From a virus: a stretch of 64,000 bases of DNA. The position numbers were made by a program, and so were the translations under genes. Position 1 is the first letter of the stretch. Every line of letters begins with the position of its first letter. The DNA is taken from positions 17,906 to 81,905 of the IMG/VR virus record IMGVR_UViG_3300032088_002153; one strand, given 5' to 3'. The notes below the pieces were generated by a model. It was not told the origin of the DNA, made no database searches, and worked only from the letters and a program-made list of their open reading frames with translations. Below are positions 3,247 to 40,564 of the stretch, piece after piece.

Positions 3247-3962
3247 TTGTAAAATCCTTTAAATATTCTAAATATTTCTTGGTGACCTTTTGCATTAGGG
3301 TGTCTATCTTGTTTGCTAATCATACAATCCCCTTGCATTAATTCTTCAAAACAACAACCGCCATATTGCCAGTGAAAAGGCCAACCAAACATATTGCCTT
3401 TTCTCTTGTGTATCATATTAAAGTAATTAGAGTCTAACATATCATATACATCTTTGTTTTCAACAAGTGGATATATCATTTGAAACACAATAAGTTCTAT
3501 ATTTTTGTGTGAACATAAATCCATTAATACATATAATTGAAATAGAGTTTCTTCTACAAGGCATTTTTTAGTATTATCATCAAATGGAATAATATTAAAA
3601 TAATCGTCGTGTCTATTTGTCCATTTTTGATGTTTGGCTTTTTGTTCTTCAGACACGTCATTATCCCATACAACATTTTTGTTTGTGTTTGGATTAAAAC
3701 GATTGTCACCGGGAGTAGAAAATCTATACCACTGAGATAAGGCTATAATACATCTAGTAGTATTACATGTATATATTTGTTTTATTGCTCTCTTTATTAT
3801 TTCTACATTACCGAGAGCATCTCCATAAACGTTAACAACGTCCCAGTCATAATAATCTTGTAATAACTCATCCCACTTTGGATATGATGTGTCGTAGCTG
3901 GGGTGGATCCTTGGAAAATAATTTCTGTTAGACCAACTGCAGCCAGACAGTATTGTTTTCAT
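3243..3962 (-). CDS. SGNH/GDSL-hydrolase-like protein, paralogue A
   Basis: The 239-residue protein begins with the block I-like motif SGCSWS and ends with HPNAKGHQEI, which resembles the catalytic Asp/His block of SGNH hydrolases. A second gene at 49854-50666 shares both blocks and the phrase YDTSYPKW, so the two are paralogues in distant operons. SGNH enzymes remove or transfer acyl groups on glycans or lipids. Here the first block has Cys-Ser-Trp in place of the usual GDS, so activity is uncertain. It lies inside the oxygenase operon with 4-nt overlaps on both sides. Confidence 0.6.
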   Translation of the reverse strand: MKTILSGCSWSNRNYFPRIHPSYDTSYPKWDELLQDYYDWDVVNVYGDALGNVEIIKRAIKQIYTCNTTRCIIALSQWYRFSTPGDNRFNPNTNKNVVWDNDVSEEQKAKHQKWTNRHDDYFNIIPFDDNTKKCLVEETLFQLYVLMDLCSHKNIELIVFQMIYPLVENKDVYDMLDSNYFNMIHKRKGNMFGWPFHWQYGGCCFEELMQGDCMISKQDRHPNAKGHQEIFRIFKGFYK

Positions 3963-4453
3963 AACATAGTGCCGACGATATGAGTTCGAGATGATGTAGA
4001 AGCATTAACAAATGTGTGAATGTTTGTTGTGTCTACCTCATAAACACTGCCATCTGCCGGCAGCCTAAAGATTTCATCGTTCATAACAAAGAAGTTATTA
4101 TCGTTGGTTTCAATTGGTATATGTATTCTTTTAGTAAAGTCTTTGTGATAAGTATAACATGTTTTACCATTCAATATCATAACCCTACTATATGCCAGAT
4201 TGTATTTTCCTAACAAAGAGTTGATATATGGCAATGCAAAATGAAACTCAACCAAGTCTTTGGCTGTTACTTTCGTTTGTCTTTCCCAAGCGTTAGTTTG
4301 GTTTGTTGCAGGTACTATATGTTTAAATACACTATCTTCAACACGTTCACCTTGAAGTGCGTAAGTCGTTTCATGGTGAATAAGAGATAACTCACTCTTA
4401 ATTTTTTCGAGATCAACTGTATCAATTACTCTATAATAAGATTGTCTATCCAT
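3959..4453 (-). CDS. 2OG-Fe(II) oxygenase, Asp/Asn-hydroxylase-like
   Basis: This 164-residue protein has TYHKDF (His 103, Asp 105) followed by RIHIPIETN, a distal His at 146 (NIHTFVN) and Arg 156 (SSRTHIVG). The phrase HIPI(E/T)T is shared with the oxygenase at 5389-6192, so these two are closer relatives. It sits in the same overlapping operon. The target is not known. Confidence 0.7.
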   Translation of the reverse strand: MDRQSYYRVIDTVDLEKIKSELSLIHHETTYALQGERVEDSVFKHIVPATNQTNAWERQTKVTAKDLVEFHFALPYINSLLGKYNLAYSRVMILNGKTCYTYHKDFTKRIHIPIETNDNNFFVMNDEIFRLPADGSVYEVDTTNIHTFVNASTSSRTHIVGTML

Positions 4454-4890
4454 GCTTGTTCGCTCACTGTAAAATCATTTGGATGGTTAATTGTTATAGC
4501 GGTTTGTGTACCCGTAATTCCAGAAACGGAATTTTTAACGTGCGAGTCAATAAGATACCATTCTCCTGCTACCGCTGTAATAGAAGACGTAACATTATCG
4601 TCAGCATCGTGAGCATGTAATATTGTGCCTACAGGATCAATAATATATAATATTCTCCAACGCGACTCCGTTGTAAAAATTCTACTATTTTTAGTCGAGT
4701 CTGACTCCTGATAACGAGTGTGTGAGTTATTTAAAATCTCTTCTAATATTTGTTCGTCTACTAAAGTTGATGTTGCGTCTGCAAGAGTCCAAGCAGTGTA
4801 ATTGATAATTGAACTATCGTATTCAATTTCTAGTGCGTTGTGGATTGGCGAAGGCATTGTCAACTGTGGTAAGTTTAGTTTTTTAATCAT
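4426..4890 (-). CDS. Possible degenerate 2OG-oxygenase-fold protein
   Basis: This 154-residue protein sits between two recognisable oxygenases. It contains HAHD at 92-95, an equivalent His at 117 (IDSHVKNS) and Gln 129 where the family has Arg. The spacing fits a beta-helix iron site but the conserved residues are weaker, so it may be inactive or bind something else. It overlaps the downstream gene by 28 nt and the upstream gene by 4 nt. The oxygenase relationship is inference from context and spacing. Confidence 0.4.
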   Translation of the reverse strand: MIKKLNLPQLTMPSPIHNALEIEYDSSIINYTAWTLADATSTLVDEQILEEILNNSHTRYQESDSTKNSRIFTTESRWRILYIIDPVGTILHAHDADDNVTSSITAVAGEWYLIDSHVKNSVSGITGTQTAITINHPNDFTVSEQAWIDNLIIE

Positions 4891-5396
4891 TTTAGTTCTC
4901 CGAATGGAATGTCGTGTATCCCCATATGAAAGACGATACGTTCCTTTGTTGGCGATTTTACACCATGTGGTTTTTTTGTATTAAGTACAGTCATAGTGTC
5001 ATATACTATGGAGTCTCTTGTATTCCCATCATCAACATATAATTCGCCAGTATTTTCAGTTACAGGTATCAGTACTGAGCAATGGCTCTTAACATCAACA
5101 TGAACTGGCAACTCTCCACCTTCTAATACTCTAAAAAAGTTGCAGCGGAATTCTTGTGGTCTTATTTCAAATGTATTCCATATTTTTTTAATCAACCTAA
5201 GAAGTGGTCTATTAAAATTGTGTATCTCTTGGACAAAGAACTTATTCATTTCTTTACCACCTGTTGCATCACTAACATATTCTGAATATAGTTTATTACT
5301 ATCAGTCCATTCGCCAGTTATATAATTTTCCCAAAAAATTGGGTCAACCTTATAATCAGTTTTTATAAACGAATCATTTATCCATGTTTTATCCAT
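4887..5396 (-). CDS. 2OG-Fe(II) oxygenase-like protein
   Basis: The start is placed at the ATG at 5396 because AGGAAGA lies just upstream; an in-frame ATG at 5414 would add six residues. From 5396 the motifs are PVHVDV (His 99, Asp 101), distal His 144 (KKPHGVKS) and Arg 153 (ERIVFHMG). These residues match the iron-ligand and 2OG-binding positions of the family. It is part of the minus-strand operon. Confidence 0.65.
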   Translation of the reverse strand: MDKTWINDSFIKTDYKVDPIFWENYITGEWTDSNKLYSEYVSDATGGKEMNKFFVQEIHNFNRPLLRLIKKIWNTFEIRPQEFRCNFFRVLEGGELPVHVDVKSHCSVLIPVTENTGELYVDDGNTRDSIVYDTMTVLNTKKPHGVKSPTKERIVFHMGIHDIPFGELK

Positions 5397-6192
5397 GTAA
5401 ATCTTCCTGACCATTAACTGATATAATAATATGTGACCGTGTAGTCGTACCTTTGTTCCAAGCCGAATGCCTCATGCCTTGATTTAAAAACCATAGTGAT
5501 CCCGGTTCCATAGTCTGATTTATTTTGCTCCCATCTTTATCTATACAATAAAATCCACAATCATCATTTGTTGTAATCGGAATATGAAACCGAATAGAAT
5601 AATCGGTATTGTAGTCGATATGCTCGGCAACGTAAGCACCCGGCTCCATAATAGCAATTCTTGCTCGTGTAACTTCGCCTTTAAATGTTTTAAGTATTTC
5701 TTCTAGGTAAGTACCCTTTACCCAGTCTTTCATTAAGTTATAGTGTCTTTCGTCAAGTCTGCTTTTAGGTATTTTCTTTTCATAGATCCGATCTTCTTCA
5801 TCTGGGTTATATTTAGTCAAAGCAATTTGTTTATATGGCGATCCATTAACTTCAAATTTGCCCTTGCCATCTTCTACAATATAATCTTCAAATGGCTTTA
5901 CATAGTTTCTAAAATCCCAAGCCATACGCTTGCCGCCTAAACCATTACGGAACTCAGACTCTTTTACATCGTTATCTTGTAAGAATTGATAAGCATCTTC
6001 AATCGTATCAAATTTTAAACCAAAAGCTTTTTGTAACTTTGCAGTTTTTCCACCAACCAAATCTCCATAGCCATCTTTTTCTTTTAGATCGTCATTTTCT
6101 GGTGGCATATTACGAACAACTTCAATGATTTTGTTTACATCAAAATGTGCGTCAAGTTTTTGAAACGGTGGCAGCTCATATCTGGTTTTCAT
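5389..6192 (-). CDS. 2OG-Fe(II) oxygenase, aspartyl/asparaginyl-hydroxylase-like
   Basis: This 267-residue protein has a C-terminal catalytic domain with AEHIDYN (His 191, Asp 193), RFHIPITTN, a distal His 242 (MRHSAWN) and Arg 252 (TRSHIIIS). This is the best textbook match in the cluster to the aspartyl/asparaginyl beta-hydroxylase type. The N-terminal 170 residues are charged and unassigned and may bind the substrate. It couples by 4 nt to the acetyltransferase-like gene upstream. Confidence 0.75.
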   Translation of the reverse strand: MKTRYELPPFQKLDAHFDVNKIIEVVRNMPPENDDLKEKDGYGDLVGGKTAKLQKAFGLKFDTIEDAYQFLQDNDVKESEFRNGLGGKRMAWDFRNYVKPFEDYIVEDGKGKFEVNGSPYKQIALTKYNPDEEDRIYEKKIPKSRLDERHYNLMKDWVKGTYLEEILKTFKGEVTRARIAIMEPGAYVAEHIDYNTDYSIRFHIPITTNDDCGFYCIDKDGSKINQTMEPGSLWFLNQGMRHSAWNKGTTTRSHIIISVNGQEDLHG

Positions 6193-6689
6193 AATTTTGT
6201 ATATCCTTTATATTGTAAACATCCATGACCGTCACAAACCGGTACTTTTTTGTCATGCATATTCCATATTGTATCTGTTGCCATTGCCACTTTATTTATA
6301 AACTCTCGCAGCATTCTGGGGTTCTTTTCTCTACTTATAAATGCTGAGGTATATCCGAGTTCTTTTGCAAACTTCAATTGGTCTTTGACGGTAGATATAA
6401 TATGGCTTCTTGCTAATTCTCTACCGATACGACGCAATTCTTGGTTTTCCCAATAACGATTTAATATTCTAACCTCACCCTTTTCATAATATTCAGGTCT
6501 ATGCCATATAGAACTAAATCCTACTATGTCGTCACCATTTTGTAATATAGAAACACAATCAAACTGAAACCAGTCTAAACCATCATAATTAACGTGGTCA
6601 TAAACTGTTTCTGATAATTGCTTTATAATGTCTGGCCTATCCTCTGGAAAAAAGCTAGTGACACTACATTCTGAGTTCAGCAATGTCAT
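6189..6689 (-). CDS. GNAT-like acyltransferase (putative)
   Basis: The middle of this roughly 166-residue protein (VSILQNGDDIVGFSSIW, then GEVRILNRYW, then GYTSAFISREKNPRML) reads like the strand-turn-helix core of a GNAT fold, but the classical acyl-CoA loop R/Q-x-x-G-x-G/A is not clear. The ATG at 6689 is preferred over one at 6716, which would overlap the upstream gene by 53 nt. It is the only enzyme of its type in the oxygenase operon and could acylate the same substrate. Confidence 0.45.
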   Translation of the reverse strand: MTLLNSECSVTSFFPEDRPDIIKQLSETVYDHVNYDGLDWFQFDCVSILQNGDDIVGFSSIWHRPEYYEKGEVRILNRYWENQELRRIGRELARSHIISTVKDQLKFAKELGYTSAFISREKNPRMLREFINKVAMATDTIWNMHDKKVPVCDGHGCLQYKGYTKL

Positions 6690-7242
6690 TCCAAAACTCT
6701 TTCTTTTTCTTACCATGAATTAATAAATGTAATCTGTCTTCGTCAGAATTATTTTCAACCATATGTGGGTAGTGAATGTTTAAAACAAACGATGAACCGG
6801 GATGATATGGTATTTCCTCGCCGTCCATAACAAACTTACTTCCCTTTGGATATGTAATAGATATATTAAGAGGATCCAGCCAGTTATGTTCTGGCACATC
6901 GATATGTTCAGCAATATAACCACCAGATTTTATAACAAGATATCTGACATCATCTATTCGAGCATATGGTAATGAATTAACAAAATCCATAGTTGCAGGA
7001 CATTGCTTTCCAATTTCAGTAATATCCTTTTTAACTTTACGTCCATATTCCCAATGACTATTTGTATTATCAGAAGCAGTGCCGTATAATGTCATAGCAA
7101 ACCAATCCTTATGACCATCCTCTGGTCTATGGATAACTAATGAGTCTTTGACTAATTTATATTCTTTTTCTATATCAGAGCAAGGAACATTAAAGTTCAT
7201 CTTTACCCAATGTGCGTCGCTACTTCTTTGCATGATGATCAC
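6664..7242 (-). CDS. 2OG-Fe(II) oxygenase, Asp/Asn-hydroxylase-like
   Basis: The start is taken as the GTG at 7242, six bases after an AAGGAA ribosome site; an ATG at 7233 is the alternative. The motifs are AEHIDVP (His 113, Asp 115 from the GTG), distal His 160 (YPHMVEN) and Arg 170. The phrase GGYIAEHID closely resembles GAYVAEHID in the gene at 5389-6192, indicating common descent. It is the second gene of the operon, after the desaturase. Confidence 0.7.
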   Translation of the reverse strand: MIIMQRSSDAHWVKMNFNVPCSDIEKEYKLVKDSLVIHRPEDGHKDWFAMTLYGTASDNTNSHWEYGRKVKKDITEIGKQCPATMDFVNSLPYARIDDVRYLVIKSGGYIAEHIDVPEHNWLDPLNISITYPKGSKFVMDGEEIPYHPGSSFVLNIHYPHMVENNSDEDRLHLLIHGKKKKEFWNDIAELRM

Positions 7243-7774
7243 TGTGGTTTCCTTCAAGTGGAGCAAAAAGATTTATCCACCATTTATTAGCAGCGCCGTC
7301 GTCGTCATGGGCTACCAAATTAAGTAATCCGTAAAACATAAATGATGTTGGTAATAATAACAATAAATGCGCAAGAAATATTGGATTTATATAAAATGCT
7401 ACAATATAAGTTATAACGAAAACATATAATTTGTTCTTGTGGAAAAACATAACTCTTGGATTATTATAAAGGTCCTTTACAAACTTTCTTGGTATATGCT
7501 TTACTTTATAAGCCGAAAACAATACTTCATACCATTTTTTATATTTTGGACTATGTGGGTCTAACTCAGTATCAGCATATGCGTGATGCATACGATGAAC
7601 GCCTGCCCAACTTAATGGCGAACATGCGCTAGCCATAGTACCTAAGTAAATTATTATTGTTTCTAATATTGGGTGCAGTTTTATTTGCTTATGTGATATG
7701 CATCTATGATACCCTATCGTCAACCCGACAGCAGCTACTACCCAATAAAATATATAAAAGTGGACTAAAAACAT
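7220..7774 (-). CDS. Fatty-acid desaturase (acyl-CoA/lipid delta-9 type)
   Basis: This integral membrane di-iron enzyme of 184 residues has the three histidine boxes of the family: HRCISH near the N terminus, HRMHH in the middle and HSDHH near the C terminus, with hydrophobic segments between. Such enzymes insert a double bond into acyl chains and use electrons from a ferredoxin or cytochrome. The ATG at 7774 follows GAGG; a TTG at 7786 would add four residues. It is shorter than cellular delta-9 desaturases. It is first in the minus-strand operon, just downstream of a late promoter. Desaturases also occur in marine cyanophages. Confidence 0.85.
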   Translation of the reverse strand: MFLVHFYIFYWVVAAVGLTIGYHRCISHKQIKLHPILETIIIYLGTMASACSPLSWAGVHRMHHAYADTELDPHSPKYKKWYEVLFSAYKVKHIPRKFVKDLYNNPRVMFFHKNKLYVFVITYIVAFYINPIFLAHLLLLLPTSFMFYGLLNLVAHDDDGAANKWWINLFAPLEGNHSDHHAKK

Positions 7775-7801
7775 AATTATCCTCAAAAACCTTCATGTAG
7801 T

Positions 7802-7841: not shown

Positions 7842-7925
7842 AGATTTATCTACTAAACAATAATAATAGTTGTTATAATGGCTGTAACAAAATAGTAACA
7901 GTATTTTTATTAAAATGGAAATCTA

Positions 7926-7954
7926 TTGACATTTTAGCTCTACTGTATTATATA
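7926..7954 (+). promoter_or_regulatory. Sigma70-type promoter P2 at the tmRNA 5' end
   Basis: TTGACA (7926-7931), a 17-nt spacer and TATATA (7949-7954). Initiation near 7961 would put the CCA end of the acceptor piece about 60 nt into the transcript, a plausible length for the acceptor piece of a two-piece tmRNA. Confidence 0.7.
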
Positions 7955-7960
7955 TAACTA

Positions 7961-8245
7961 GTGAACGTTGAAATGACGTGAATACGGATCGGACCTCGGG
8001 GCAGTACCGAGCATCTCCACCAAATTTACTCTGTAGGGTAAAAACTGATAATTTACTTTGTAGAGTAAATTTGATGGGGATGAACAAGGATCGACGGACG
8101 GAATAGCTTAATGGAGTTCATCGGGTGATCGCGTATAGATCAATTAAACTAAATGCAAATGAAAATTTCGCACCATCTGGATTTGCTCTAGCAGCATAAT
8201 CACAGGGGGGTTGTCCACTTACCTAGCAACAGAAAAGTGGTACTT
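7961..8245 (+). ncRNA. ssrA: Circularly permuted (two-piece) tmRNA, ssrA
   Basis: The gene order is acceptor piece first, coding piece second, as in alphaproteobacteria. The acceptor 3' strand CATCTCC-ACCA (8012-8022) pairs fully with GGGGATG (8076-8082), with one G-U. T-stem CTCGG/CCGAG lies at 7995-7999/8007-8011. The 53-nt intervening segment carries a perfect 10-bp inverted repeat (8022-8031/8063-8072) that continues the acceptor stem and would present both ends for processing. GGATCGACGGACGG follows the 5' end, close to the usual GATTCGACGGG. The tag frame starts at GCA 8155 and reads ANENFAPSGFALAA-stop (TAA 8197-8199). GTTG/CAAC interleaved with CCACTT/AAGTGG (8210-8240) forms an H-type pseudoknot. 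Oddity: the T-loop GGCAGTA lacks the normal TTC. Outer ends are estimated. Confidence 0.9.
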
Positions 8246-8274
8246 AATAAAACTATTACAAGGAAAAAGGTAAC

Positions 8275-9063
8275 ATGGGTAAATTCTTATTAACAACGGC
8301 ACTAACTTTGGTAGCCGGTGCAGCGATTGCACAGGAAGTAACCGAAGCACCAGTAGGATTAACTGGTAAAATTGAAACAGTAATTGCTGAAGGTGCTGGT
8401 GGAGATTGGGGTGCAACGTCATCTTTTGATCTTGGCGTATCTGCAGGATCTGGCTTAGCATCAGGTTCTATGTCTTTCGTCGTTGACTCAAATAACGATT
8501 TGGCTTTAGACGAATATTCAATCGGTACATCAATCGGTGGAACTGAATTGTCATTTGGAGACCAAGGCAATATTTGGATTGACACAGAAAACGGTTCTTC
8601 TATTGAAGAAGCAAAGATTGCTGATGAAAGCATTCAAGCAACTATCGCAGGTGTATCAGTAGCAGCCGGCTTAAACATGGATGATTTAACTGACATTCAA
8701 AACGTACAAGCTGGTTACGGTATTCCATTAGGAATTGCTAACATCAACGCAGTAGGTGACTATAACCTAAACAGTGAATCATGGATTGTAGCAGGTCGCG
8801 CAGACACAGACGGTATGTTGGAAAATGTACGTATCGGTGGTGCAGTATCATACGGTTCAATTTCAGAAAAACTTGGCTTTGAAGCTGACGCTACAGTAGG
8901 ACCATTAACTGGTTATATTGGCGGTGACCAAGATGATCTAATGAAAGATGCAGGCGTTAATGGTGAAGTTGCTGTTGCAGGTATCGATGTAGAAACTAAA
9001 TTGAACTATAACTTTGACAGTGAAGAATTAACACCATCAGTTGGTTTAAGTTTCAACTTCTAA
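8275..9063 (+). CDS. Outer-membrane porin-like beta-barrel protein A
   Basis: This 262-residue protein has a signal peptide (basic MGK, hydrophobic core, cleavage near AIAQ), then alternating short hydrophobic/polar strands rich in Gly, and a final SFNF with C-terminal Phe, the signal for BAM-mediated outer-membrane insertion. It resembles small alphaproteobacterial porins in style. It lies directly after the tmRNA with AAGGAAAAAGG as ribosome site and ends before a strong terminator. A phage copy could change nutrient uptake or block receptors against other phages; neither is shown. Confidence 0.7.
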   Translation: MGKFLLTTALTLVAGAAIAQEVTEAPVGLTGKIETVIAEGAGGDWGATSSFDLGVSAGSGLASGSMSFVVDSNNDLALDEYSIGTSIGGTELSFGDQGNIWIDTENGSSIEEAKIADESIQATIAGVSVAAGLNMDDLTDIQNVQAGYGIPLGIANINAVGDYNLNSESWIVAGRADTDGMLENVRIGGAVSYGSISEKLGFEADATVGPLTGYIGGDQDDLMKDAGVNGEVAVAGIDVETKLNYNFDSEELTPSVGLSFNF

Positions 9064-9085: not shown

Positions 9086-9108
9086 AGAGGGGCTTCGGCT
9101 CCTCTTTT
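9086..9108 (+). terminator. Rho-independent terminator after the porin gene
   Basis: An 8-bp stem (9086-9093/9098-9105, one G-U) closes a UUCG tetraloop and is followed by a short T run. It ends the tmRNA-porin transcript; a late promoter starts a new unit 7 bases later. Confidence 0.9.
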
Positions 9109-9114
9109 AGTTTG

Positions 9115-9122
9115 TATAAATA
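9115..9122 (+). promoter_or_regulatory. Late promoter TATAAATA for heme oxygenase
   Basis: A perfect TATAAATA box lies immediately downstream of a terminator and 34 bases before the heme oxygenase ATG. The position between terminator and gene makes a functional role likely. Confidence 0.7.
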
Positions 9123-9155: not shown

Positions 9156-9698
9156 ATGACTAATAAATTGAAGCAACTCACATGGGCACATCACCAAGCA
9201 GCTGAACGTAGAAAATTTGCTAAGCAACTAATTAGTGGTGGCATAGACCCATTCGTATATTATAAGTTTTTAAATTGTCAGTACTTAGTATACAGACTAT
9301 TAGAAGACATTGTAATTATTCCACCAAACCTTACTGCAATTTATAGAGCTCCGCGTATTCTTCAGGATATGGATGAGTTATCAGAAATTTATGGATTTGA
9401 CGATATTGATAGTTATCCAGAATCAGTTGGCAGATGTATGACACACATGCAAGGATTGGCTGATGCAGACGATAACGATAGTCTATTAGCACATATGTAT
9501 GTAAGGCATTTTGGTGAACTTCATGGTGGACAAATCATTAAAGCTAAGACACCCGGAAAAGGGATTATGTATGAATTTGAAGGTGACACAAAAGTACTTA
9601 TCGAAGAATTTAGAAAACTATTGCACGATGGTATGGAAGTAGAAGCTAAGAAATGCTTTGATTTCGCATCAGAATTATTTGACGAATTATCCAAATAA
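9156..9698 (+). CDS. hemO: Heme oxygenase (biliverdin-forming)
   Basis: Heme oxygenases open heme to biliverdin, CO and Fe2+ using electrons from a reductant such as ferredoxin. This 180-residue all-helical protein is a normal bacterial length. His 13 in HHQAAE matches the proximal heme ligand motif H-x-x-A-E, and MYVRHFGELHGGQ matches the distal helix with its flexible glycines. It precedes a bilin reductase gene (9929), so biliverdin is the likely intermediate, not only iron release. It has its own late promoter, while the bilin reductase has a host-type promoter. It is clearly of the HO family; whether it belongs to the HemO or Ho1 subgroup is not resolved. Confidence 0.9.
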   Translation: MTNKLKQLTWAHHQAAERRKFAKQLISGGIDPFVYYKFLNCQYLVYRLLEDIVIIPPNLTAIYRAPRILQDMDELSEIYGFDDIDSYPESVGRCMTHMQGLADADDNDSLLAHMYVRHFGELHGGQIIKAKTPGKGIMYEFEGDTKVLIEEFRKLLHDGMEVEAKKCFDFASELFDELSK

Positions 9699-9701
9699 CT
9701 A

Positions 9702-9730
9702 TTGACATTCTTAGCTATTTGTTATAAAAT
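9702..9730 (+). promoter_or_regulatory. Sigma70-type promoter before the bilin reductase operon
   Basis: TTGACA (9702-9707), a 17-nt spacer and TAAAAT (9725-9730), starting 4 bases after the heme oxygenase stop. It shares the CTATTGACATT block with several other promoters in this window. Confidence 0.75.
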
Positions 9731-9764
9731 ACTAATATAAATCAAAACATATAAGGAGAGTAAA

Positions 9765-9932
9765 ATGCAAGATGACGCATTAGATACAGTTAACCTTAAA
9801 CCAAAACCGCGCGCTGAACGAATGCTTAAAAGTAACAGCGCACGTCGGCGGCGAAGTGTACTCAAATCAATTAGAGAAACACGTTTGTTAAATGAATTCG
9901 CAAAACTCCGAAGATTAAGAAAAAGCAAATGA
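9765..9932 (+). CDS. Small Arg/Lys-rich protein (55 aa)
   Basis: The ATG at 9765 follows AAGGAGAG. The 55-residue product is strongly basic (SARRRR, FAKLRRLRK) with no membrane segment. Its TGA overlaps the start of the bilin reductase in ATGA, so the two are translationally coupled. The function is not recognised; the composition suggests nucleic-acid binding. Confidence 0.7.
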   Translation: MQDDALDTVNLKPKPRAERMLKSNSARRRRSVLKSIRETRLLNEFAKLRRLRKSK

Positions 9933-10615
9933 CTCCATTATGGGATAAATTGAATGATTACGCTGCGCATATTCGTGGCAAGTTTCAAGACAACTTTACT
10001 GAATATGAAGAGCCTGCTATGAACGATCTTTATTTTAAAGATTGGGATGATAGGTTTTGGCATTCACCCATTGTTAATAAAGCACATTTAAAGACTATCG
10101 TACCAGCAGATGGTAAAGGTCTTTGGTTGATGCACGTTAATGTTTTCCCTAAGGCTGGTTTAGAATTGCCAATCTTAGGGTTTGACATCGTTGCTGGACC
10201 AAAGAAAATTACTGGTTCGTTTATGGATTTCTCTCCGCTGCATGGCTTTGAGCATCCATATAGTGATTACATGGCTAATAAGGTTAAAGACTTAGAATGG
10301 AATAAACCAAGAGAACTACCAGATTGGGCAAAAGAAATATTTTCAAAATCAATGATTGCAGTTGGAAATATTAATACTGATAAAGAATTAGACCAATTCA
10401 TTGCTGTAACATCAGATCTAGTTAATTATTATTTAGATAATTTAAAAGATATGACTTATGTATCAAATCGCGATACATCACCTTTATTAAACAAATATTG
10501 TGTTAACCAAAAGAAAAATCCGCACCTTCATCGGTCAATACTTGCTATGGGTATTACTGAAGAAGACAAAGACGATTATGTAAATAATGTTCTTTTTGCG
10601 GAGATTAACGGTTGA
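9929..10615 (+). CDS. pcyX: Ferredoxin-dependent bilin reductase (PcyX/PebS-like)
   Basis: FDBRs reduce biliverdin stepwise to phycobilins with ferredoxin electrons. The 228-residue protein shows the family landmarks: FPKAGLELPILGFDIV (73-88), then MDFSPL (99-104) whose Asp 100 aligns with the catalytic Asp 105 of PcyA, Asp 182 in NRDTSPLL, and YCVNQKKNPHLHRSIL followed by YVNNVLF at the C terminus. Four-electron viral enzymes of this kind (PebS in cyanophages, PcyX in marine phages assigned to alphaproteobacterial hosts) make phycoerythrobilin; the PcyX assignment here is inference from host signals. It lies close behind heme oxygenase. No ferredoxin gene is visible in the window. Confidence 0.85.
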   Translation: MTPLWDKLNDYAAHIRGKFQDNFTEYEEPAMNDLYFKDWDDRFWHSPIVNKAHLKTIVPADGKGLWLMHVNVFPKAGLELPILGFDIVAGPKKITGSFMDFSPLHGFEHPYSDYMANKVKDLEWNKPRELPDWAKEIFSKSMIAVGNINTDKELDQFIAVTSDLVNYYLDNLKDMTYVSNRDTSPLLNKYCVNQKKNPHLHRSILAMGITEEDKDDYVNNVLFAEING

Positions 10616-10640
10616 CACTTTACGGTTGTTGTGATACAGT
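10612..10640 (+). promoter_or_regulatory. Sigma70-type promoter overlapping the bilin reductase stop
   Basis: TTGACA (10612-10617), a 17-nt spacer and TACAGT (10635-10640) with an extended TG upstream of the -10. The UGA of the bilin reductase lies inside the -35 box. Confidence 0.6.
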
Positions 10641-10959
10641 AGATATAAATCAAGGTTATGAGTATATAGAAATTGGCGGTTATCATTTTAAGGTAACTGT
10701 CACGTACTGCTCTAACTGTGGGTCAATGAAATCAACTTCAAATATTAAGGAAAGTAAAATGGCAGGCGACACTATTATTATGGAAAAAGCAGGTAAAACA
10801 CTTAAGGCTGAATACTTCAGTACAACTGATGGCAGCGGATGCCGGTTTTTTATTAATGAAGAATTTATTCAAGAAGAACTATATGAAGGTAAGTCAATTC
10901 ATTGGGCAGAAAGCGCGGCTGAAAACTGGCTTAGTGGGGTTAAATCATTGAATGGATAA
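10612..10959 (+). CDS. Putative zinc-ribbon protein
   Basis: The frame from TTG 10612 gives 115 residues with a Cys pair at 6-7 and CSNC at 33-36, a possible four-Cys zinc site. If the overlapping promoter is used, this TTG lies inside its -35 box and cannot be transcribed from it; an internal ATG at 10759 with AAGGAAAG ahead would then give a 67-residue form lacking the zinc site. Two products from one frame are therefore possible. The family is not recognised. Confidence 0.55.
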   Translation: MTLYGCCDTVDINQGYEYIEIGGYHFKVTVTYCSNCGSMKSTSNIKESKMAGDTIIMEKAGKTLKAEYFSTTDGSGCRFFINEEFIQEELYEGKSIHWAESAAENWLSGVKSLNG

Positions 10960-11215
10960 AGGCAATTCCCAAGAAAAAGTTATTAACCCTCGTACGCCTG
11001 AAAAGGTACATCACGAGATTTCAAGCATGTTATCAAATGGAGTTAATTATATTGATGCGTTAGTTGAATACGCGCGACAAAATGGATTGGAAATAGAGGC
11101 AGTAGCCGATATAGTCAAAAAGTCTTCTATCCTAAAAGAAAAAGTTAGGACTGAAGCAGTGAAAATGAAAATGGTGATAAAAGATGATCAAGACATCACA
11201 GAGCTTTGCGAATGA
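10952..11215 (+). CDS. 33: Late-transcription coactivator gp33-like
   Basis: The 87-residue protein has the pattern typical of T4-like gp33: YIDALVEYARQNGLEIEAV followed by DIVKKSSILKEKVR and a closing EAVKMKM. gp33 bridges RNA polymerase, with the gp55 sigma factor, to the sliding clamp to activate TATAAATA promoters during replication. Its position directly before gp59 is typical of T4-like marine phages, and it fits the late promoters seen here. It overlaps gp59 by 32 nt. Confidence 0.75.
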   Translation: MDKGNSQEKVINPRTPEKVHHEISSMLSNGVNYIDALVEYARQNGLEIEAVADIVKKSSILKEKVRTEAVKMKMVIKDDQDITELCE

Positions 11216-11786
11216 GGAATCATTTAACTGTTACGTAAAATACCTTGCAATGAAAAAGCATTTTACTACAGATGGATATGATTATCATAAGTACAGAGGA
11301 AAAATTAGAGCATCGTTTGAGACATACCGTACTCGGAACGATGTTTTCTTTTTTCACAAACTCGCTCAAAAGGAAGACCCTGAAAAATTGTTAATGGCTA
11401 ACATGATAGTCAAACCAAACATATGGATTAGGGAAATCGTTGAGCAAGACGGAGAAGATCGTTATGTGGAATGGACCAAGAAACGGGATTCATTATCACG
11501 CGTCGTTAAAGACGATCTTAATAAACTTAGAGACGAATACCAAGATAACTTTGTGTCTGTTCAAGGACAGCATCCAGCTATTATGACTCTCTATATTCAA
11601 CGGCAAATAACACTTGAGACGTTTACTATTTTAACCCATTGCGCAAATATTTTTTCGTATTGGGACCAAAAAGTAGTTGACAAAATCGTAGCAAGTGATA
11701 TAATTAGATTATCTAAGAAGTACTATCCTTTCTTAGAAATCGAACAGAAAAAGTTTAAAAATATTATACGTGAACACTTTTTCTAA
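11184..11786 (+). CDS. 59: Replicative helicase loader gp59-like
   Basis: gp59 loads the gp41 helicase onto gp32-covered forked DNA. The 200-residue length and the N-terminal pattern (YVKYLAMKKHFTT, then YDYHKYRGKIRASF and TRNDVFFFHKLA) fit T4-like gp59 proteins. The downstream order 59-32-uvsX-41 confirms it. The start at 11184 overlaps gp33 and could be slightly downstream. Confidence 0.85.
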   Translation: MIKTSQSFANEESFNCYVKYLAMKKHFTTDGYDYHKYRGKIRASFETYRTRNDVFFFHKLAQKEDPEKLLMANMIVKPNIWIREIVEQDGEDRYVEWTKKRDSLSRVVKDDLNKLRDEYQDNFVSVQGQHPAIMTLYIQRQITLETFTILTHCANIFSYWDQKVVDKIVASDIIRLSKKYYPFLEIEQKKFKNIIREHFF

Positions 11787-11794: not shown

Positions 11795-11867
11795 GATGGT
11801 CGGCTTAACGACAAATACATCGCAATATAAACAAACGCTATACACAGCAAAATTAGGAGATATAACC

Positions 11868-12806
11868 ATGTCAATGGATTTCAACGCACTTAAGAAGAAT
11901 CGTTCAGCTTCTCTAAACAAATTGAACTCACAGCTCGAGAAAATTCAAACTAAGAGCTATTCAGATCCCAACGAAGGTAAAATGTGGAAACCAACGCGCG
12001 ATAAAGCGGGTAACGGTTTTGCTATTATTCGATTCTTGCCAGCCGCGCAAGGTGAAGAAATGCCATTCGTTCGCATCTGGGACCACGGTTTTCAAGGACC
12101 AACAGGATTATGGTATATTGAAAACTCACTTACGACCGTTAACCAAGACGATCCAGTATCCGAGTACAACTCAAAGTTGTGGAACTCTGGTCTCGAGTCT
12201 GATAAAGAGTTAGCTCGTAAACAAAAGCGTCGACTAAAGTACGTGGCAAATATCCTCGTCGTAAAAGACGGTGCAAACCCTGAAAATGATGGTAAAGTCT
12301 TTATGTACCAATTTGGTAAAAAGATTTTTGACAAACTAAACGATCTGATGAACCCAACGTTCGAAGACGAGAGACCAGTCAATCCATTTGATTTCTGGGA
12401 AGGCGCTAACTTCCGTTTGAAAATTCGTAAGTTTGAAGGATATCCTAACTATGACAAATCTGAGTTTGACTCACCATCGGCTATTGCTGATGACGACTCA
12501 GTAATCGAAGGTATTTGGAACCAACAGCACAAGTTGCAAGAGTTGGTAGATCCAAAGAACTTCAAATCATACGCAGAGTTGAAAACAAAACTTTATCGTG
12601 TACTTGCTTTAGGTGAAGAAGCTGCAGTGCCAGCCACCGCTGAGGAAAATGATGATTTGGATTTGAGCAGCTTTGGTAATACTAGCAAGTCAGCTCCAGA
12701 ACCAACCTTGAAAGAAGCAATGCCTGAGGCAAGCACTTCGCAAGGAATGTCAATGGACGATGACGACGATGATCTATCTATTTTTAAGGAACTAGCAAAT
12801 GGCTAA
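11868..12806 (+). CDS. 32: Single-stranded DNA-binding protein gp32
   Basis: gp32 coats ssDNA in replication and recombination. The ATG at 11868 with AGGAGA seven bases upstream gives 312 residues; a frame extension to 11796 lies in the leader. The core HGFQGPTGLWYIENS and KVFMYQFGKKIFDKL are typical, and the acidic end (DDDDDDLSIFKELANG) is the protein-interaction tail. The Cys residues of the T4 zinc site are absent although the corresponding His is kept, as I recall for marine relatives. It precedes a coiled-coil gene and uvsX. Confidence 0.9.
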   Translation: MSMDFNALKKNRSASLNKLNSQLEKIQTKSYSDPNEGKMWKPTRDKAGNGFAIIRFLPAAQGEEMPFVRIWDHGFQGPTGLWYIENSLTTVNQDDPVSEYNSKLWNSGLESDKELARKQKRRLKYVANILVVKDGANPENDGKVFMYQFGKKIFDKLNDLMNPTFEDERPVNPFDFWEGANFRLKIRKFEGYPNYDKSEFDSPSAIADDDSVIEGIWNQQHKLQELVDPKNFKSYAELKTKLYRVLALGEEAAVPATAEENDDLDLSSFGNTSKSAPEPTLKEAMPEASTSQGMSMDDDDDDLSIFKELANG

Positions 12807-36211: not shown

Positions 36212-36240
36212 TTGACATTTAGGGATATATGTAGTATAGT
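36212..36240 (+). promoter_or_regulatory. Sigma70-type promoter for nrdB-nrdA-hemA
   Basis: TTGACA (36212-36217), a 17-nt spacer and TATAGT (36235-36240). It starts a leader of about 115 nt before nrdB. Confidence 0.75.
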
Positions 36241-36244
36241 AACT

Positions 36245-36252
36245 TATAAATA
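36245..36252 (+). promoter_or_regulatory. Possible late promoter TATAAATA in the nrd leader
   Basis: A perfect box overlapping the initiation region of the sigma70-type promoter. It could prolong nrd expression late; chance occurrence cannot be excluded in this AT-rich leader. Confidence 0.4.
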
Positions 36253-39367: not shown

Positions 39368-40564
39368 ATGAACTATCTGAAATACTTTGAAAAAACAGTT
39401 AAAGAATTTAAAGCCGATGGCAGATATAGAGTCTTTAACGATATACTTAGAGAGCGAGGGTCTTTCCCTCGTTCAATATGGTATGGTAAGTATGCTCCAA
39501 AAAATATAGTGAACTGGTGTTCTAATGATTATTTAGGTATGGGTCAAAATCCATATGTTATTGATTCAATGCATACAGCTTTGGATCAGACAGGTGCTGG
39601 ATCAGGCGGTACTCGTAATATAGGTGGAACATCACATTACCATGTTACATTAGAGCGAGAGATAGCATCTTTACATAAAACTCAATCGGCATTAATATTT
39701 ACAAGCGCATATGTTGCTAATGAATGGTCACTTATAGCCTTATCTAAAATTATACCAAATATATGTTTTGTTTCTGATAGCAAAAACCATGCTTCAATTA
39801 TTATGGGTATGGTAAATAGTAGAGCAGAAAAACTAATATTTGAACATAACGATATGTCTGATTTGGAAACAAAACTCAAACTGGCGCTTAAACGTAAACT
39901 AAACCCCGTAATTGTATTTGAGTCAATATACTCGATGGACGGAGATGTATCACCTATAAAATCAATAGTTGATCTGGCATATAAATATAAGGCAATGACT
40001 TATATAGACGAGGTCCATGCAGTAGGTCTTTATGGTAAAACAGGCGCTGGGTATTGTGAAGAGCTAAACTTATATTCTGATAGTATCGACATTGTGAACG
40101 GTACATTGGGAAAAGCTTACGGCGTCCAAGGAGGTTACATTGCAGGTAATCAAACTATTATTGACGCTATTAGGTCGACGGCAAGTGGTTTCATATTCAC
40201 TACCAGTATGTCACCAGTTATATGCGCTGGGGCACTCGCCAGTATAAATTATCTAAAGGATCACAACTCCCTTAGAGAAAAACATCAAGAACGTGTTGCC
40301 AAACTCAAAGGCATGCTTATTGATGCAGGAATAAATATCCATCCAAACGCTTGTACTCACATTATACCAGTGATGGTCAATGATGCGTTTAAATGTAAAG
40401 AAGCTTCGGATAGATTAATAAACGAATTCGGTATATACATACAACCAATTAATTCTCCAACAGTGGAACAAGGGACCGAGCGATTACGTATCGCACCTAC
40501 TCCATACCATACCGATATAATGATGGTAGAATTAGTTGAAGCGCTGAAAGAAGTATTGAAATGA
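39368..40564 (+). CDS. hemA: 5-aminolevulinate synthase (Shemin pathway)
   Basis: This PLP enzyme condenses glycine and succinyl-CoA to 5-aminolevulinate, the first step of tetrapyrrole synthesis. The 398-residue protein has [19 protein letters not shown] (79-97), [10 protein letters not shown], the PLP-contact [12 protein letters not shown] (Asp 214) and the Schiff-base Lys 249 in NGTLGKAYG, all matching ALAS more closely than other alpha-oxoamine synthases. ALAS in bacteria is characteristic of alphaproteobacteria. It is 3 nt behind nrdA, so it is made in the early/middle phase, and it overlaps the DUF454 frame. With hemO and the bilin reductase it forms an open tetrapyrrole route completed by host enzymes. 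Confidence 0.92.

Follow-up and report, generated by a model that had tools for sequence, protein, structure and literature searches.

A T4-like phage contig with a lysine-type bilin reductase and a heme oxygenase behind separate early- and late-type promoter motifs

The window analyzed here is a stretch of 64,000 nucleotides that comprises bases 17906 to 81905 of an 81,905-bp contig from a marine virus, and profile matches to gp33, gp59, gp32, and a DnaB-like helicase identified T4-like genes on this contig. The window contains genes for a heme oxygenase (HemO) and a ferredoxin-dependent bilin reductase (FDBR), both of which are intact, with open reading frames that match the coordinates in Table 1. 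An earlier note, made from the sequence without database searches, had described these two genes as lying together. Both genes and their families were confirmed, but they are separated by 230 bp containing a promoter and an open reading frame (ORF) for a basic protein of 55 amino acids, which had no Pfam or PHROG match. The stop codon of this small ORF overlaps the start codon of the FDBR gene (ATGA), which suggests translational coupling. Together with 5-aminolevulinate synthase (AlaS), on which the earlier note is silent, the predicted pathway entry, heme opening, and bilin reduction steps are all encoded on the phage.

Table 1. Predicted features of the window around hemO, the FDBR gene, and alaS (positions are those of the window)
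Feature	Position	Strand	Basis or remark
Intrinsic-terminator-like hairpin	9086..9105	+	upstream of hemO
T4-type late promoter box TATAAATA	9115..9122	+	before hemO; motif
hemO, heme oxygenase, 180 aa	9156..9698	+	PF01126; HmuO and family alignments
Sigma70-type (early) promoter TTGACA-N17-TAAAAT	9702..9730	+	before 55-aa ORF and FDBR
Basic ORF, 55 aa, conserved	9765..9932	+	between hemO and FDBR
FDBR, ferredoxin-dependent bilin reductase, K-type (Lys55, His69, Asp86), 228 aa	9929..10615	+	PF05996, 5owg, model/fold, residues, tree
115-aa ORF (orf115), CxxC protein, downstream in the same early operon	10612..10959	+	
gp33-like late-transcription coactivator	10952..11215	+	PF16805 2.2e-9
gp59-like helicase loader	11184..11786	+	PHROG 269 5e-49
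gp32-like single-strand DNA-binding protein	11796..12806	+	PF08804 1.8e-46
Sigma70-type promoter (36212-36240), then late box (36245-36252), ahead of nrdB-nrdA-alaS	36212..36252	+	
alaS, 5-aminolevulinate synthase, 398 aa, immediately following nrdA	39368..40564	+	TIGR01821, 7x98

The window belongs to a family of hundreds of related loci. The gene order tmRNA-(porin)-hemO-small ORF-FDBR-orf115-gp33-gp59-gp32 was kept in more than 50 of them, with HemO identity down to 58%. A small basic protein is encoded between hemO and the FDBR gene in nearly all relatives, and many carry an additional AbrB-like small protein (judged by eye) behind it. The gene at window positions 8275 to 9063 encodes a signal-peptide protein that by eye resembles an outer-membrane beta-barrel or porin and had no Pfam or PHROG match; it is conserved between the tmRNA and hemO and evolves faster than hemO. 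Single relatives differed in this region: a corrinoid (B12)-binding protein of the methyltransferase type (by eye) is encoded directly behind the FDBR gene in one of them (L143:1760-2449), an A-type Fe-S carrier-like gene lies between the FDBR gene and orf115 in L144 (7266-7550) and L145, and a glycosyltransferase-like gene (by eye; L015:9005-9814) lies between hemO and the small ORF in a lineage without the early promoter.

All three enzymes scored above the thresholds of their family profiles. HemO matched PF01126 (4.9e-18, 66 bits versus a cut-off of 23), and the FDBR matched PF05996 (1.7e-16, 61.1 bits versus a curated cut-off of 31), with PcyX_EBK42635 (PDB 5owg) as its best solved relative (1.7e-41). 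The AlphaFold model of the FDBR (pLDDT 93, pTM 0.91) had the FDBR fold, with Z scores of 24.2 against PcyA and 21.9 against PcyX (rmsd 1.7 over 178 residues). Pairwise dN/dS values were approximately 0.04 to 0.08 for hemO (pairs with unsaturated dS) and approximately 0.06 to 0.10 for the FDBR gene (against three relatives); these values, well below 1, indicate strong purifying selection on both. AlaS catalyzes the first step of heme synthesis. The phage protein reached 544 bits with TIGR01821 (equivalog cut-off, 339), matched 7x98 at 1.7e-132, and contains the pyridoxal phosphate-lysine motif GTLGKAYG (pattern GTLxKA(F/Y)G). It was present in the long relatives too, and the cultured phage records in our collection contained no convincing AlaS, the best matches having approximately 30 to 37% identity and several being annotated as related enzymes. 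Its last residue is number 398, and a Lys occupies the position aligned with His342, which together with Cys400 is a heme-inhibition residue (register read by hand).

The reductase differs from its relatives PcyA and PcyX at position 55, which is a Lys and aligns with Glu76 of PcyA and Asp55 of PcyX. Among 180 distinct FDBR sequences of the PcyA/PcyX branch, extracted from the fetched loci, this residue was Lys in all 80 members of the window group, Asp in all 60 members of the group formed by PcyX and Pelagibacter phage Mosig EXVC030M (MT647606, cultured on HTCC1062), and Glu in all 40 PcyA sequences, while the catalytic residues His69 and Asp86 were invariant in the three groups. In trees computed without the alphaproteobacterial PcyA (AX clade), the window clade and PcyX grouped together, apart from PcyA, with a support of 100, and this value was 100/100 when the trait column for position 55 was removed. 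The Lys group formed one clade (support, 99) in the full tree and was paraphyletic at the base with that column removed, so that Lys may be ancestral within the phage group. The earlier designation of the enzyme as PcyX-type therefore stands as far as the side of the tree is concerned and falls short at the active site: with Asp55 replaced by Lys, the predicted enzyme is not a canonical PcyX.

The locus could be an ordinary PcyX cassette, a divergent member of the known AMG set in which Lys55 is neutral and phycoerythrobilin (PEB) is made as by PcyX, and we lean only slightly against this. The FDBR stands next to PcyX in the trees, it keeps the Asp-His pair, and in the structure study of PcyX (FEBS J 2018) Asp55 itself is reported not to be catalytic, which keeps the plain PcyX reading alive. 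However, the strict division into Lys, Asp, and Glu groups argues that position 55 matters, identity to the Mosig PcyX is only 36%, the operon architecture differs, and Wegner et al. 2024 (PMC11480375) name Asp55 as the PcyX-specific catalytic residue. The characterized PcyX EBK42635, a phycoerythrobilin synthase, shares the fold, His69, and Asp86 with the window enzyme, whose activity is predicted, but differs from it in residue 55 and belongs to a separate tree group.

A PcyA-like activity that yields phycocyanobilin (PCB) appears very unlikely. The same paper describes one PcyX class with Asp55 as well as a PcyA from the freshwater phage CB_2 (compared here by description), which likewise lacks Asp55 and makes PCB (PMC11480375). 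However, Glu76, which is required for the 18-vinyl reduction that gives PCB (PMC10151467), is replaced by Lys in every relative of the window phage, and the FDBR groups with PcyX rather than PcyA in the tree. Cyanobacterial and cyanophage PcyA enzymes share the FDBR fold and the catalytic His and Asp with the window enzyme but have only 22 to 29% identity to it.

In the literature we found no characterized precedent for a Lys at the Glu76/Asp55 position, and the chemistry and product of this FDBR are therefore extrapolated. Consequently, the statement in the earlier note that enzymes of this type make phycoerythrobilin is not supported as written, since with Lys55 the product is not deducible from the sequence. 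As far as the literature that we read goes, the Lys55 variant with its changed active-site residue is what is new at this locus. The main-text parts of PMC11480375 mention neither this residue nor the HemO substitutions and promoter split described below. The Lys group adds a third class of active site to the PcyA/PcyX branch, in which regiospecificity can be tested.

HemO also carries active-site changes, which the earlier note had overlooked. It shares with the HmuO/HO-1 family the profile, the GG of the distal helix, and the proximal ligand, with His13 aligned to HmuO His20 and conserved across the aligned phage sequences. In contrast, the distal catalytic Asp (Asp136 in HmuO, Asp140 in HO-1) is replaced by Glu121, and His123 stands where HmuO has Ser138. 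Glu in place of the distal Asp was found in the HemO of most phages in the window group, and the motif RHFGELHGGQ occurred in 59 distinct relatives, never paired with a PcyX-type reductase. By analogy, it is plausible but not certain that the Glu121-type HemO is active: the distal Asp is also absent from plant heme oxygenases, yet the Asp140His substitution lowers the activity of human HO-1 (PMC7948506). The idea that Lys55 always goes with the Glu/His type of HemO was considered and rejected, as Lys-type FDBRs occur with an Asp/Ser HemO in L224, L225, L228, L267, L268, and most of L273 to L281. Because some phages with a Lys-type FDBR carry the Asp/Ser form, HemO appears to have been exchanged.

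The earlier note had also assigned hemO a late promoter and the reductase an early-type one. In the window alone, neither motif type was clearly above chance; across the relatives both were. Of 32 distinct regions upstream of hemO, 27 had the late box TATAAATA at most 90 nt from the gene (shuffles gave a mean of 0.34 and a maximum of 3). Of 24 distinct regions upstream of the small ORF leading the FDBR operon, 20 had a sigma70-type promoter (TTGACA-N16-18-TAnnnT) at most 100 nt from that ORF (shuffles gave a mean of 0.12 and a maximum of 2). In two of the four regions without this early motif, TTTACA is present instead. In the same upstream regions, the late box was not found before the FDBR operon, nor the sigma70-type promoter before hemO. 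Since both motifs far exceed the shuffles across the relatives, without crossover, the early/late split, with its classes defined by consensus motifs, is a conserved trait of the window phage group, and the assignment in the earlier note was borne out. The early promoter is absent in L015/L155, and hemO lies directly behind the tmRNA, without a late box, in L126, L129, L130, L132, L134, and L137. Many relatives likewise have a T-run hairpin ahead of the late box.

The split may have no functional meaning for timing and follow simply from gene order, with the FDBR gene at the head of a replication operon; we regard this as quite possible and lean somewhat against it. The FDBR gene is upstream of gp33-gp59-gp32 in every locus that includes them, and other genes have been freely inserted within the conserved hemO-FDBR-gp32 stretch in some relatives. 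On the other side, the hemO late box and the sigma70-type promoter of the FDBR operon have both been kept over a large divergence, and in 59 of the 73 PcyX-type phage loci the two genes share one operon with an overlap of 7 to 10 nt (taken from the matches). If the split is functional, HemO and the FDBR are naturally set apart in time, by which pigment and iron hypotheses become separately testable.

The window phage and Mosig are both T4-like phages (the Mosig host is a heterotrophic alphaproteobacterium) with HemO and FDBR genes as neighbors and genes for Fe-dependent oxygenases nearby. However, the hemO and pcyX genes of Mosig are adjacent and overlapping in one operon beside neck genes, whereas the window has split early and late units beside gp33-gp59-gp32, with the promoter and small ORF between them. 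Mosig also has Asp55 in its FDBR and the distal Asp in its HemO, which is 32% identical to that of the window. Wegner et al. 2024 report cassettes of alaS, hemO, and pcyA/X, some complete and some broken, from phages of marine and fresh waters and connect the marine cassettes with pelagimyophages (PMC11480375). The window has the same three enzymes and the same proposed pathway; its cassette is broken, alaS lying far away from hemO. The genomic context, which the earlier note had called new, is thus not so: because Mosig and the published metagenomic alaS/hemO/pcyA/X cassettes exist, phage bilin genes in a non-cyanobacterial host are already known in general. The reason for such genes in phages of hosts without phycobilisomes is called enigmatic in the literature.

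The search for a ferredoxin, which the earlier note had reported missing nearby, was extended to the whole 81.9-kb contig and to the contigs of six relatives (three of them 183 to 221 kb), and no Fer2 ferredoxin (PF00111) was found in any of these; the electrons for the FDBR would therefore have to come from the host. The search for a phycobiliprotein or other bilin acceptor gave a single sub-threshold PF00502 match, located within an open frame of 3674 aa in G003, so that a pigment would have no visible use.

We consider it fairly likely that the phage encodes a heme-to-bilin module of AlaS, HemO, and a K-type FDBR supplied by host ferredoxin, with a product of the DHBV/PEB type, the FDBR made early, and HemO made late. 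AlaS would push flux into the host heme pathway, and HemO would open heme to biliverdin, CO, and iron, presumably by a cut at the alpha position. The FDBR would then reduce biliverdin with electrons from host ferredoxin to a reduced linear tetrapyrrole, most likely not phycocyanobilin but a compound of the 15,16-dihydrobiliverdin/phycoerythrobilin type, with the likeness to PEB being extrapolated. As the first recognizable enzyme of the gp33-gp59-gp32 operon, the FDBR would be made early, and late synthesis of HemO would delay heme breakdown until replication has begun, which may spare host heme proteins during that phase. The goal of such a module would be the bilin itself rather than iron.

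The opposite goal, iron recycling, would have HemO free heme iron late for iron-dependent phage enzymes, with the FDBR merely disposing of biliverdin. Candidate consumers are encoded by the phage: a single block (window 3959-7786, minus strand) holds genes for three Asp/Asn beta-hydroxylase-like proteins together with one for a DesA-like fatty acid desaturase, and the phage also has a class I ribonucleotide reductase and an A-type Fe-S carrier (ErpA/IscA-like; L020:2984-3268, minus strand). In Mosig, genes for 2OG-Fe(II) oxygenases and for a ferrochelatase are neighbors of hemO-pcyX, and iron supply is discussed for such cassettes in PMC11480375. We nevertheless judge iron recycling to be distinctly unlikely: AlaS on the same phage feeds heme synthesis, and heme that is made and then degraded gives no net iron gain, which favors the bilin as the goal; furthermore, the FDBR promoter is of an earlier type than that of HemO, opposite to what a clean-up role would require. 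A bolder version of the bilin module is that the K-type FDBR and the Glu/His HemO form a new pathway variant that makes another biliverdin isomer, a reduced bilin that is neither PEB nor PCB, or both, in a marine host without photosynthesis and for a use other than light harvesting; this is tentative, and we think it rather unlikely.

The host is probably not a cyanobacterium. No photosystem reaction-centre genes were found on this T4-like phage, and profiles, fold, and trees support its HemO and the placement of its FDBR on the PcyA/PcyX branch. A permuted (two-piece) tmRNA of the alphaproteobacterial type lies at window positions 7906 to 8290 (RF01849, 104.5 bits, tag ANENFAPSGFALAA); its start bears a TTGACA-N17-TATATA promoter, and in most relatives the porin-like gene and hemO follow it closely. 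The tmRNA type, AlaS, and the absence of photosystem genes point to a host that is probably alphaproteobacterial. Naming the host through the tmRNA was tried and abandoned, as the phage RNA, with 104 bits versus 250 to 310 for the best-scoring alphaproteobacterial ones, is too divergent. Similar tmRNAs are known from Melnitz-like phages. Against the tmRNA as a pointer to the host, such two-piece tmRNAs occur in marine phages, including one infecting OM43 (PMC9004378).

As a host gene, the FDBR was absent from 397 genomes of one alphaproteobacterial order and from 384 other Alphaproteobacteria, where the sole genome with matches was a metagenome-assembled genome (MAG) carrying phage contigs. 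Lys-type contigs, probably of phages, were found in a Rhodobacteraceae MAG (Water_Bin34: L163, L165, and L166) and in a Bacteroidetes MAG (UBA4009: L164); because the coverage values in the contig names are unequal, these placements are suggested to be binning errors. Phage contigs binned into bacterial MAGs in this way could mislead annotation. PcyA-like genes were also present in records titled Nonlabens xiamenensis (L172) and Bifidobacterium breve MAG (L176), and L176 groups among Synechococcaceae, so that its label is probably wrong.
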